Assembly (NCBI GenBank): GCA_002729525.1
Contig: PBYI01000033.1
Location: 62,001-126,000 of the forward strand
Source: Nocardioides sp.
GTDB taxonomy: Bacteria; Actinomycetota; Actinomycetes; Propionibacteriales; Nocardioidaceae
DNA length: 64,000 nt
Direction: 5' to 3'
Every line of letters begins with the position of its first letter. Position 1 is the stretch's first letter. The notes under the pieces are model-generated. The model was not told the DNA's origin, did not search any database, and saw only the letters and a list, made by a program, of their open reading frames with translations. The translations under genes and the position numbers were made by a program. Positions 13,038 to 17,236 of this stretch are shown here, piece by piece.

Positions 13038-14513
13038 ATGACTGCTACCGCGACCGGCCGCACCTACGAGGTCAAGACCTACGGGTGCCAGATGAACGTC
13101 CACGACTCCGAGCGCCTCACCGGGCTGCTGGAGGACGCGGGGTACGCCGCCGCGCCCGCCGGCGAGCAGGCTGACGTCGTCGTCTTCAACACCTGCGCGG
13201 TGCGCGAGAACGCCGACAACCGCCTCTACGGCAACCTCGGCCACCTCGCGCCGGTCAAGGCGGCCCACCCGGGCATGCAGATCGCCGTCGGCGGCTGCCT
13301 GGCGCAGAAGGACCGCGAGACCATCACCGACCGCGCGCCGTGGGTCGACGTCGTCTTCGGCACCCACAACATCGGCTCGCTGCCGGCGCTGCTCGACCGG
13401 GCACGCGCGCAGGAGGAGGCGCAGGTCGAGATCCTCGAGTCGCTCGAGGTCTTCCCGTCCACCCTGCCGACCAAGCGCGACTCGGCGTACGCCGCGTGGG
13501 TGTCGATCTCCGTCGGGTGCAACAACACCTGCACGTTCTGCATCGTCCCGAGCCTGCGCGGCAAGGAGAAGGACCGCCGGCCCGGCGAGATCCTCGCCGA
13601 GGTGGAGGCGCTGGTCGCCGAGGGCGTCACCGAGGTGACCCTGCTGGGTCAGAACGTCAACGCCTACGGCGTGGAGTTCGGCGACCGCCAGGCGTTCAGC
13701 AAGCTGCTGCGCGCCTGCGGCGAGGTCGAGGGCCTGGAGCGGGTGCGGTTCACCAGCCCGCACCCCGCGGAGTTCACCGATGACGTCATCGAGGCGATGG
13801 CCGAGACCCCCACCGTGATGCCCCAGCTGCACATGCCGCTGCAGTCGGGGTCCGACCGGGTGCTCAAGGCGATGCGCCGGTCCTACCGCAAGCAGAAGTT
13901 CCTCGGCATCATCGAGCGGGTCCGAGCCGCGATGCCCGAGGCCGCGATCACCACCGACATCATCGTCGGCTTCCCCGGCGAGACCGAGGTGGACTTCCTC
14001 GAGACCCTCGACGTCGTGCGGCAGGCGCGCTTCTCCAGCGCCTTCACCTTCCAGTACTCCAAGCGCCCCGGCACGCCCGCCGCGACCATGGACGGCGAGG
14101 TGCCGCCCGAGGTCGTCAAGGACCGCTACCAGCGCCTCGTCGCGCTCGTCGACGAGATCGCCTGGGAGGAGAACAAGCAGCGCGTCGGTCGCACCGTCGA
14201 GCTGATGGTCGCCGAGGGCGAGGGCCGCAAGGACGTCGAGACCCGTCGGCTCTCCGGCCGCGGCCCCGACAACCGGCTCGTGCACTTCGCCGCGCCCGAG
14301 GAGCCCGTCCGGCCCGGCGACATGGTCACCGTCGAGGTCACCTACGCAGCCCCGCACCACCTGGTCGCCGACCGCGTGCTGTCGGTGCGGCGTACCCGCT
14401 CCGGCGACGCGTGGGAGGCCCGCACCGCGGCCCCGGCGACCGCGGGTGTCGGGCTCGGGATGCCGACCGTCGGCGTGCCCGCACCGCTCCCGGACGCTCC
14501 CGCCTGCCGCTGA
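13038..14513 (+). CDS. miaB: tRNA-2-methylthio-N6-dimethylallyladenosine synthase MiaB
   Basis: Radical-SAM methylthiotransferase that adds the 2-methylthio group to i6A37 of tRNAs reading UNN codons, the step after MiaA. 491 residues. The N-terminal MTTase domain carries a [4Fe-4S] set starting '[15 protein letters not shown]'. The radical-SAM cluster motif 'CNNTCTFC' lies near residue 160, with 'GQNVNAYG' after it, and a C-terminal TRAM RNA-binding domain (about 375-445). ATG 13038 is used; the tracked start is an upstream TTG. A Pro/Ala tail of about 30 residues is added at the C-terminus. Confidence 0.96.
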
Positions 14514-14583
14514 GGCCGGCCGCGCCCAGCGTGCCTGTGGAGGAGTGGTCGCGTCGGCGGCCCTCCCCGGCGAGGGTGGCGGG

Positions 14584-15468
14584 GTGGACCTGGACACCGC
14601 GCTCGAACGCCTCGGCGGCGCCGCGACGCGGGGTGTGCTGGTGTCCGCGTGCGGACGGGCCGAGGTCGACCGGGCGCTGCGCGACGGTGACCTGGTCGCG
14701 GTCGCGCGCGGACGGTACGTCGGGGCAGCGACCGACGCATCCCGGGCACTCGCCCACCGGGTGTCTGGTGCTCTCGCCGGACCGAGCGCGGCGCTGGCGC
14801 ACGGGTGGGCCGTGAAGACGGAGCCCGAGCGACCGTGGGTCGCGGTGCCCGAGCACCGGGTCGTGCCCGCCGAGGTACGCCGGCAGGTCACGGTCGTGCG
14901 GATGCCCGTGGCGCCGGAGGAGATCGCCGCGGGCGTGCTCGACCAGGACCGCACGCTGCTCCACGCACTACGACGCCTGCCGCCCGACGAGGCCCTGGCG
15001 GTCGCTGACTCCGCGCTGAGGGACGACTACCCGCACCGACGGCTCGCAGCGTTGGCGGCTGCTGCGCAGGGGCCGGGGAGCAGGCAGGTCCGCGAGGTGG
15101 CCGCACGAGCCGACGGCCGGGCGGACAACCCGTTCGAGTCGGTCCTGCGCCACCTCGCGACCGAGTCCGGCCTCGACGTACGACCACAGGTGCCGCTGCA
15201 CGGGACGCACGGCTTCCTCGGGCGCCCGGACCTGGTCGACCACGAGCGGCGCCTGGTCCTCGAGGCAGACTCGTTCGCCTGGCACGGCAGCCGGGACGCG
15301 CTGTGCAGGGACGCGCGACGCTACAACGCCTTCGTCGCCCACGGGTGGCTGGTGCTGAGATTCACCTGGGAGGACGTGATGCTCCGTCCCGATGACGTGT
15401 GCGAAGTCCTGGTGGCCGTCGTACGGCAGTGGGGGTACCACGGACGCCACAGCGGACCGGCCGCGTGA
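14584..15468 (+). CDS. AbiEi-like antitoxin domain + DUF559 (Vsr-like) domain protein
   Basis: 294 residues from GTG 14584 (alternative GTG 14545). The N-terminus 'LERLGGAATRGVLVSACGRAEVDRALRDGDLVAVARGRYV' resembles the winged-helix of type IV AbiEi antitoxins. The C-terminus has the DUF559 nuclease-like core 'GRPDLVDHERRLVLEADSF...DARRYNAFVAHGWLVLRFTWEDVM', with candidate Asp, Glu and Lys-equivalent positions of the Vsr/PD-(D/E)XK fold. Such fused proteins are numerous in Nocardioides, usually stand alone, and have no established function. No AbiEii toxin lies next to it. Confidence 0.75.
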   Translation: MDLDTALERLGGAATRGVLVSACGRAEVDRALRDGDLVAVARGRYVGAATDASRALAHRVSGALAGPSAALAHGWAVKTEPERPWVAVPEHRVVPAEVRRQVTVVRMPVAPEEIAAGVLDQDRTLLHALRRLPPDEALAVADSALRDDYPHRRLAALAAAAQGPGSRQVREVAARADGRADNPFESVLRHLATESGLDVRPQVPLHGTHGFLGRPDLVDHERRLVLEADSFAWHGSRDALCRDARRYNAFVAHGWLVLRFTWEDVMLRPDDVCEVLVAVVRQWGYHGRHSGPAA

Positions 15469-15524: not shown

Positions 15525-15530
15525 TAGGGT
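15525..15530 (+). promoter_or_regulatory. Leaderless -10 hexamer (TAGGGT) of the peptidase E gene
   Basis: TAGGGT is followed by seven bases and GTG 15538. This supports that GTG over the tracked 15529, which overlaps the hexamer. Confidence 0.6.
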
Positions 15531-15537
15531 GTGCGCC

Positions 15538-16263
15538 GTGCCCGCGGACGCTCCCACCATCCTGGCCACCTCCGGCGGCATCGTCGCCGGCTCCCGCACC
15601 CGCTGGGAGGTCGGCCCGCTGACCCACCACGCCGTCGACCTGGCCGGCGTGACCGGCCGCGCCCCGAAGGTCTGTTACCTCGGCACCGCGTCGGGCGACC
15701 AGGCCTCGGCGATCCGCGACTTCTACGACGCCGCCCAGCTGGTCGGCTTCGAGGCCAGCCACCTCCAGCTCTTCACCATGCCCAACGTGGCCGACCTGCG
15801 GGCGCACCTGCTCGCGCAGGACGTCATCTGGGTGTTCGGCGGGTCGGTCGCCGGACTGCTGGCGATGTGGGAGCTGCACGGCGTGGGCGAGGTGATGCGC
15901 GAGGCCTGGGAGGCGGGCGTGGTGCTGACCGGCGTCTCGGCGGGCTCGATCTGCTGGCACGTCGGCGGCACGACCGACTCGTTCGGGCCGGACCTGCGCC
16001 CCGTCACCAACGGGCTGGCGCTGGTGCCGTACTCCAACGGCGTCCACTACGACTCCGAGGAGCAGCGGCGCCCGCTGTTCCAGTCGCTCGTCGCGGACGG
16101 CTCGCTGCCGGAGGGCTTCGCCACGGACGACGGCGTCGGCGTGCTCTACCGGGGCACCGAGCTGGTCGGCGCGTACGCCGAGCGGCCCGAGGCGGGCGCC
16201 TACCACGTGGTCCGCGACGGGGACCGTGCCGTCGAGACGCCGCTGGACGTGGTCCGGCTCTGA
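15538..16263 (+). CDS. Peptidase E (S51 family dipeptidase-like)
   Basis: 241-residue class-I glutamine-amidotransferase-like serine peptidase. The nucleophile elbow 'GVSAGSICWH' holds the catalytic Ser, preceded by 'IWVFGGSVAGLLAMWE', which matches the G-G-x family pattern; a downstream His in 'GVHYDSEEQRR' fits the dyad. Peptidase E cleaves Asp-Xaa dipeptides in enterics; substrate in this actinobacterial branch is unproven. It has its own leaderless-type promoter and converges on the small-protein operon. Confidence 0.85.
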   Translation: MPADAPTILATSGGIVAGSRTRWEVGPLTHHAVDLAGVTGRAPKVCYLGTASGDQASAIRDFYDAAQLVGFEASHLQLFTMPNVADLRAHLLAQDVIWVFGGSVAGLLAMWELHGVGEVMREAWEAGVVLTGVSAGSICWHVGGTTDSFGPDLRPVTNGLALVPYSNGVHYDSEEQRRPLFQSLVADGSLPEGFATDDGVGVLYRGTELVGAYAERPEAGAYHVVRDGDRAVETPLDVVRL

Positions 16264-16288
16264 CGTCCGGCCGGCAGGGCCCGGACGG

Positions 16289-16537
16289 CTAGTCCGGCTG
16301 CGTGCTCTGCGGACCCTTCTCGCCGTCGATGCCCTTCCACGGGTGCTCGGCCGACTTCGGGTGGTGGCTGGGGTAGCCGGCCTTGGTGGCGACCTCGTCG
16401 GGGTTGGTCTCCGGGGCGCCGGCGGACTGCTCCGGCGGCACCTCCTCGCCCGGGGCGCGCTCGTGCGGACTGACGTCGCGGGTGCCGGAGGCCTGCTGGA
16501 CCTCCGGGCTGCCGGCGTCGGGGATCTGCTCGCTCAT
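16289..16537 (-). CDS. Small hydrophilic acidic protein (82 aa), operon gene 4
   Basis: I do not recognise a domain. The 82 residues are rich in Glu, Pro, Ser and Gly and probably unstructured; the C-terminal half 'YPSHHPKSAEHPWKGIDGEKG' is the most distinctive part. It overlaps the previous gene by four bases (ATGA) and is the last of four coupled genes headed by an MT0933-type protein. Its codon use and clean frame support a real gene. A stress-related role is only a guess. Confidence 0.6.
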   Translation of the reverse strand: MSEQIPDAGSPEVQQASGTRDVSPHERAPGEEVPPEQSAGAPETNPDEVATKAGYPSHHPKSAEHPWKGIDGEKGPQSTQPD

Positions 16538-16794
16538 GCGGGGGACTCCTTCTCCGGCTCGTCGTCCTCTTCGCCCTCGGTCGCCTTGGTGCGGGTGTCC
16601 TCGAGGGTCTTCATCTCCTCGGGGAGGGCCTCATCGACGGCCGGATTGTGGTCGGGGTCGAGGTCGTGCGGCTCGACGTCGCCGGCCATCGCGGGCTCCG
16701 GGACGGCGTCGACGCCGCCGGGGTTGCCGGGGCCGGGCTCGGTCTCCGGCTCGGGGCGGGGCCCGAGGTCCTGCTCCTGGTCCTGGTCGCTCAC
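16534..16794 (-). CDS. Small acidic Pro/Glu-rich protein (86 aa), operon gene 3
   Basis: 86 residues, strongly acidic with a 'EPETEPGPGNPGG' low-complexity stretch, no cysteine and no membrane segment. GTG start with a good SD (GGAGAGGAGCAG). It shares a 4-base overlap with the next gene and follows the 54-residue gene by 23 bases. No known family is recognised; intrinsic disorder is likely. Confidence 0.6.
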   Translation of the reverse strand: MSDQDQEQDLGPRPEPETEPGPGNPGGVDAVPEPAMAGDVEPHDLDPDHNPAVDEALPEEMKTLEDTRTKATEGEEDDEPEKESPA

Positions 16795-16817
16795 GTGCTG
16801 CTCCTCTCCGCGCCGTC

Positions 16818-16982
16818 CTACTGGGACGGCTGGTCCTGCGAGGTCTCGGCGTTCTCCTCCTGGAGGGCCGACGCGGCCTGGTCGCCGTCGTGGGCCCCGG
16901 GTGCGTCGCTGGGGTGCTCCCCGGGCGGCTCCTCGGTGAGGTCGAGCGCGGCGTTGTCCTCCTCGGGCACGGGCTGGGTCAT
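16818..16982 (-). CDS. Small acidic protein (54 aa), operon gene 2, below the ORF-track cut-off
   Basis: A 54-codon frame absent from the supplied track. It reads MTQPVPEEDNAALDLTEEPP..., ends ...ETSQDQPSQ and is overwhelmingly acidic and disordered, like its two downstream neighbours. Its ATG overlaps the stop of the MT0933-like gene as ATGA, the same coupling as elsewhere in this operon; this coupling is the main evidence that it is translated. Confidence 0.6.
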   Translation of the reverse strand: MTQPVPEEDNAALDLTEEPPGEHPSDAPGAHDGDQAASALQEENAETSQDQPSQ

Positions 16983-17185
16983 CGCACGTCCCCGCCCTGC
17001 CGGCCGTCGAGACCGTCGAGAGCCTTCTTCGCCTGACCTGACGCCTGCGTGATCCGGGCGCTGTGCTTGCCGCCCGTGCGTCGGTCGGCCTCGCTCGCGG
17101 CGCGGTCGATGCCGCGCGAGATCGTGTCGCCGTGGTCGTCGACGGCCTTGCGCAGACGTCCCTTGGCCTTGCTCAGGAAGCTCAC
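16979..17185 (-). CDS. MT0933-like (Rv0909-type) antitoxin-family protein
   Basis: 68 residues: 'MSFLSKAKGRLRKAVDDHGDTISRGIDRAASEADRRTGGKHSARI...', matching the PF14013 pattern of an N-terminal amphipathic helix, an 'I..GIDKA' core and 'KTGGK'-like motif. Mycobacterial Rv0909 was annotated as an antitoxin of a type II system, but many copies have no toxin, as here. GTG 17185 after AGGAGG is chosen; the tracked start at 17446 lies inside miaA on the other strand. It heads a four-gene operon and is divergent from miaA by 51 bp. Confidence 0.75.
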   Translation of the reverse strand: MSFLSKAKGRLRKAVDDHGDTISRGIDRAASEADRRTGGKHSARITQASGQAKKALDGLDGRQGGDVR

Positions 17186-17236
17186 GGTGTCCCTCCTCGT
17201 ACGCGGTGCCGGTGTCCTCCTTGAGACACTAGGCAG

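Follow-up and report, generated by a model that had tools for sequence, protein, structure and literature searches.

The antitoxin label of the PF14013 family derives from Rv0909-Rv0910, a pair whose toxin, a START-like protein, arrests growth but leaves translation unblocked, and in which co-expression of the antitoxin rescues growth; this inhibition and rescue have been established for mycobacterial pairs only (PMC2781298). For hydrophilins, the proposed criteria are a glycine content above 6%, a GRAVY below -1 and a mean hydrophilicity above 1, and they are said not to suffice as a definition (PMC4190154). Here we analyzed a locus of Nocardioides in which a PF14013 gene stands at the head of a set of tiny genes. 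The locus lies within a window of 64,000 nucleotides, by which we mean the whole stretch of DNA analyzed. Four minus-strand genes of 68, 54, 86 and 82 codons (g1 to g4) occupy the interval from the start codon of miaA, which is a tRNA-modification gene, to a convergent gene of the peptidase S51 family:

15529 to 16263, plus strand: peptidase S51 family gene, convergent neighbour (PF03575, 99.7 bits)
16264 to 16287, no strand assigned: inverted repeat rich in GC (CGTCCGG-N10-CCGGACG), flanked by the convergent S51 and g4 stop codons
16289 to 16537, minus strand: g4, acidic and apparently disordered protein of 82 aa, ATG start
16534 to 16794, minus strand: g3, acidic and apparently disordered protein of 86 aa, GTG start
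16795 to 16817, minus strand: g2-g3 gap of 23 bp, site of a Nudix hydrolase gene of about 155 residues in relatives
16818 to 16982, minus strand: g2, acidic and apparently disordered protein of 54 aa, ATG start, with the C-terminal end QEENAETSQDQPSQ
16979 to 17185, minus strand: g1, PF14013 (MT0933_antitox-like) protein of 68 aa, GTG start
17226 to 17231, minus strand: TAGTGT element that resembles a -10 box in the g1 orientation, shortly before the miaA start codon
17237 to 18175, plus strand: miaA, divergent neighbour (TIGR00174, 259 bits)

Gene layout and candidate transcription signals

The g1/g2 and g3/g4 junctions are 4-bp ATGA stop/start overlaps, and a likely ribosome-binding site for g3 (GGAGAGGAG, positions 16801-16809) lies inside the g2-g3 gap. 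The start codons of g1 and miaA, which are divergent, are 51 bp apart. With its 54 codons, g2 would be missed by any ORF threshold of 60 residues. The original prediction had claimed a four-gene set of tiny proteins led by a PF14013 member, and we found the sizes, the positions, the two ATGA overlaps and the 23-bp gap as it gave them. The operon apparently encodes real small proteins that are co-translated, with the PF14013 protein at their head. On the other side of the S51 gene, between it and miaB, we also noted a DUF559/AbiEi-like gene (14446-15468, plus strand), which scores 25.9 bits against PF04480, above the cut-off, and has a weak PADLOC match to AbiEi. Genes related to it come and go at the same spot in relatives.

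The -10-like element has counterparts elsewhere: the stretch ahead of g1 contains TAGT[CG]T in 60 of 87 loci, and many relatives conserve it as GTGGCTAGTGTGGCAA. This longer element (17220-17236 in the window) is strongly conserved and abuts the miaA start codon; it is a candidate -10 box that might serve g1, a leaderless miaA or both genes. A simple promoter scan returned nothing, and no stress promoter was recognised. At the opposite end of the operon, the inverted repeat may terminate both convergent transcripts as a shared terminator. It has no T-run, a terminator scan gave no match to it, and RNA folding at the operon end is ordinary (z -1.2).

Conservation of the small genes across Nocardioides

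Lack of conservation of the three downstream frames had been set as one outcome that would refute the original prediction. All three proved to be conserved: a g3 profile matched 171 of 200 genomes of the genus, a single-sequence search with g4 matched 33 of 119 relatives, and among loci with both genes of a pair detected, the 4-bp overlap was kept in 34 of 39 (g1/g2) and in 56 of 66 (g3/g4). Among the 37 genera sampled in the order, g3 was limited to one. NG86 dN/dS across relatives gave pooled values of 0.8-0.9 for the small genes, which are uninformative here because third positions are GC-saturated. In its place we computed codon entropy at residues conserved in at least 85% of sequences. 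The values at conserved residues were 0.74 bits for g2 (background 0.89), 0.82 for g3 (background 0.97) and 0.71 for g4 (background 1.05), much like those of the Nudix hydrolase found in relatives (0.76 against 0.92). Codon entropy near background at conserved residues indicates that the amino acid sequence is kept as synonymous codons change. We conclude that g2, g3 and g4 are genuine genes, conserved at the protein level across Nocardioides.

As far as we searched, the operon is genus-wide and undescribed in both sequence libraries and literature, where we found no paper on this Nocardioides operon. What had been a string of family-less ORFs becomes three defined, genus-wide protein families in a single operon.

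A Nudix hydrolase between g2 and g3 in relatives

In relatives, an ORF of about 155 residues follows g2 and precedes g3. It encodes a Nudix hydrolase that scores 68-73 bits against PF00293. The Nudix box is present in 110 of 111 operon Nudix proteins. The AF2 model is confident (pLDDT 85), and the nearest solved folds are RppH, MutT and NudC, at about 24% identity. The protein, a member of a large superfamily, also has a weak PADLOC match to PDC-S07 (29.5 bits).

We examined gene architecture in the window and in 120 other loci retrieved for their g3. Five of the 121 have g3, or g2 and g3, away from miaA, and the other 116 are of the cluster type. A full-length Nudix gene was found upstream of g3 in 114 of the 116, and it lies between g2 and g3 wherever g2 is present in the usual order; 31 cluster-type loci consist of g1, Nudix and g3 only, with g2 and g4 undetected. 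The two cluster-type loci without a full-length Nudix gene are the window and L085. The latter keeps a 39-codon remnant of the Nudix C-terminus and an extra acidic ORF of 75 codons between g2 and g3, and its g2, g3 and g4 are intact. A Nudix orthologue is absent from the window genome, where the best match scored 35.7 bits; the orthologues listed score roughly 250-306 bits. Of 219 genomes of the genus, 197 have an orthologue. The ribosome-binding site of g3 survived the deletion in the window. In a tree built from miaA and miaB, the window belongs to a supported clade (0.93) together with Nudix-bearing relatives and L085 is placed elsewhere; given these separate positions, the two Nudix losses look independent.

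Across 200 genomes, g3 and the Nudix gene occurred together in 167, g3 alone in 4, Nudix alone in 13 and neither in 16, a co-occurrence with an odds ratio of 51 (Fisher p 1.5e-12, phylogeny ignored). Two loci (L083 and L087) carry a second Nudix gene upstream of g1. Set against the arrangement PF14013-g2-Nudix-g3-g4, the window has both 4-bp overlaps and the divergence from miaA, and lacks the Nudix gene between g2 and g3. We infer that the window cluster is a reduced, Nudix-less variant of this Nocardioides-specific operon.

Composition and motifs of g2, g3 and g4

The downstream proteins had been described as acidic, disordered and family-less; we found them acidic, without a family and apparently disordered. 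Their pI values are 3.2-4.4, they are the only three of the 59 called window ORFs with a GRAVY below -1 (range -1.28 to -1.43), and they have no match in Pfam, NCBIfam, PADLOC or PHROGs; searches of plasmid, PADLOC and PHROGs collections with the tested window proteins yielded no match. Both g2 and g3 are free of aromatic residues. We applied two of the three hydrophilin criteria (glycine above 6% and GRAVY below -1; PMC4190154) to the g2-g4 and Nudix proteins of the operon: both values lie past these thresholds in 43 of 60 g2, 90 of 121 g3 and 58 of 66 g4 proteins, and in none of 111 Nudix proteins. The same holds for g3 (glycine 8.1%, GRAVY -1.43) and g4 (9.8%, -1.31) of the window. Window g2 has a GRAVY of -1.28 and 5.6% glycine, under the 6% threshold.

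Each family carries near-invariant blocks. That of g2 is QEENAETS.DQPS. Across relatives, g3 has PGGVDA, NPA, EDTST.AT and E.PA; for window g3 we noted the motifs NPGGVDAV, NPAVDEALPEEM and EDTxTxAT and the C-terminal end ESPA. The blocks of g4 across relatives are SSE..G..GPGQ, PPEQ, PKAGY and DPR. Window g4 has the core PPEQSAG..E.NP....KAGY and lacks the N-terminal SSE..G..GPGQ motif, which 59 of 66 g4 proteins of the operon carry. The g4 of N. mangrovi (L103) also lacks this motif, though the Nudix gene is present at its locus.

Some genes of these families depart from the usual order. Proteins of the g4 type (SSE..GxTGPGQ...PPEQ...KAGYP..DPR) are encoded away from miaA in L010-L012, L018, L022, L023, L029 and L031. 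Because several genomes with such a displaced g4 have an operon of g1, Nudix and g3 only, g4 seems to have moved in them. In L078, g3 is in tandem.

PF14013 and its neighbours

The match of g1 to PF14013 (51.6 bits) is well above the curated cut-off of 27, and g1 is the single PF14013 gene of its genome. The AF2 model, of moderate confidence (mean pLDDT 76), predicts a two-helix hairpin with helices at residues 3-37 and 42-60, for which we found no convincing relative in the PDB. Window g1 is basic (net charge +6, pI 11) with a GRAVY of -0.96, short of the hydrophilin threshold of -1, and its relatives are near neutral (genus median pI 6).

We compared 51 PF14013 loci drawn from phylum and class searches. 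A START gene resembling Rv0910 adjoins the PF14013 gene only in Mycobacteriaceae loci (8). There is no START-type toxin gene beside window g1, whose neighbours are g2 and miaA, and the only START homologue of the window genome, 27% identical, is on another contig. The hint of a toxin-antitoxin system in the original prediction was not upheld by these results. Divergence of PF14013 and miaA was seen in Streptomyces-like genomes, in one more genus of the family to which the window belongs and in at least three further families; therefore, the linkage of miaA and PF14013 probably predates the Nocardioides operon. Linkage to the toxin seems peculiar to mycobacteria, and for PF14013 proteins of other bacteria the name antitoxin is misleading. 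Tandem PF14013 genes were seen in L183, L343 and L345.

Proposed function and alternatives

The reading that we favour, with a probability of roughly 0.4, is that g1-g4 form a stress-protectant set, composed of hydrophilin-like disordered proteins and the helical PF14013 protein, with some binding specificity and once with a nucleotide-hydrolysing partner. All operon proteins would be made together from one mRNA beginning near miaA. The products of g2-g4 would act as flexible, hydrophilin-like shields that keep other macromolecules soluble or hydrated under desiccation, osmotic or oxidative stress; their short conserved motifs would supply some specificity, and g1 would add an amphipathic helical element. 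As part of this response, the Nudix hydrolase may have cleared nucleotides that were damaged or served as signals, and it would have been dispensable to the small proteins. The survival of g2-g4 through two losses of the Nudix gene suggests a use for them that does not depend on the enzyme. Protection against stress agrees with the composition, since values in most g2-g4 homologues are hydrophilin-like. Composition by itself is weak evidence for a hydrophilin role, and the invariant motifs of g2-g4 are more in keeping with specific binding than with generic shielding.

Since disordered proteins with conserved motifs usually have partners, we keep as the main rival, possible although doubtful, an adaptor or regulator role. 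Here g1-g4 would be specific binding partners with two clients, the Nudix hydrolase and another, which their short linear motifs recruit, inhibit or tether; only the other client would be left in the window genome. The near-invariant blocks exceed the needs of a role based on composition only, g3 and Nudix co-occur across the genus (phylogeny ignored), and the N-terminal motif of window g4 has gone along with the enzyme. However, g2-g4 were retained through two apparently independent losses of the Nudix gene, no g3 was detected in 13 of the Nudix-bearing genomes, the g4 of N. mangrovi lacks the same motif despite a Nudix gene at its locus, and g4 homologues are found off the operon in some genomes.

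It is rather improbable that the three motif-bearing disordered proteins and the helical hairpin protein make up a genus-specific hub or condensate, organising a nucleotide-hydrolysing client and persisting with other clients after the enzyme was lost. If true, the operon would encode a bacterial multi-IDP scaffold, not a set of generic protectants.

We also give little credence to a decaying operon, the remaining frames of which would persist merely because the Nudix loss was recent. The missing motif of g4 and the unusual charge of g1 are what decay might produce, but none of the four frames is interrupted, the g3 ribosome-binding site and the two overlaps are preserved, and nearly all conserved residues are retained in g1-g3. 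Moreover, g2-g4 are intact in L085 after a loss of its own. Very improbable, too, is a toxin-antitoxin remnant in which g1 is an orphan antitoxin whose toxin was lost. The family label comes from a pair in which the antitoxin rescues growth (PMC2781298), yet among the loci examined such a START gene adjoins PF14013 in Mycobacteriaceae only, the PF14013 gene of Nocardioides, Streptomyces-like genomes and several other families lies divergent from miaA without this toxin, the sole START homologue here is a distant and unlinked one, and the gene that was lost is a Nudix hydrolase, no known toxin class. Finally, high-GC DNA is rich in long chance ORFs, dozens of which are listed in the window, but that the four frames are spurious is scarcely credible given their genus-wide conservation in the same frame, their synonymous variation and their conserved overlaps.

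Having kept the disordered proteins after loss of the enzyme, the window and L085 provide two natural experiments, through which the function of conserved disordered proteins in bacteria can be tested directly.

Comparison with known systems

With Rv0909-Rv0910 the locus shares a clear PF14013 member. It differs in the absence of an adjacent START-type toxin, in its divergence from miaA and in its partners, which are acidic disordered proteins, plus a Nudix hydrolase in relatives. The same PF14013/miaA arrangement is seen in Streptomyces-like genomes and other families (L193, L198, L199, L200, L202, L205, L340, L343, L345, L351 and L354), and in four of these loci (L198, L200, L202 and L205, from Streptomyces-like genomes and another family) a small acidic ORF adjoins the PF14013 gene. 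However, no family matches the acidic partners outside Nocardioides to g2-g4, and the Streptomyces-like loci have an extradiol-dioxygenase-like gene nearby, not a Nudix gene. Three of the four small acidic ORFs were tested against Pfam, with no match; those of L200 and L202 start with MDMGFLERLFGRSK / MGVFERLLRRSK and contain IPRQQ.

The Nudix hydrolase of the relatives resembles MutT/RppH/NudC-type enzymes in its PF00293 domain, its Nudix box and its closest fold, but it is about 24% identical to the solved ones, and the window genome has none. Hydrophilins and LEA-like protectants are similar to most g2-g4 homologues in glycine content and hydropathy, and g2 and g3 are free of aromatics. In contrast to these protectants, the g2-g4 proteins match no LEA or hydrophilin family, are strongly acidic, have conserved motifs and come as three different proteins within one operon.
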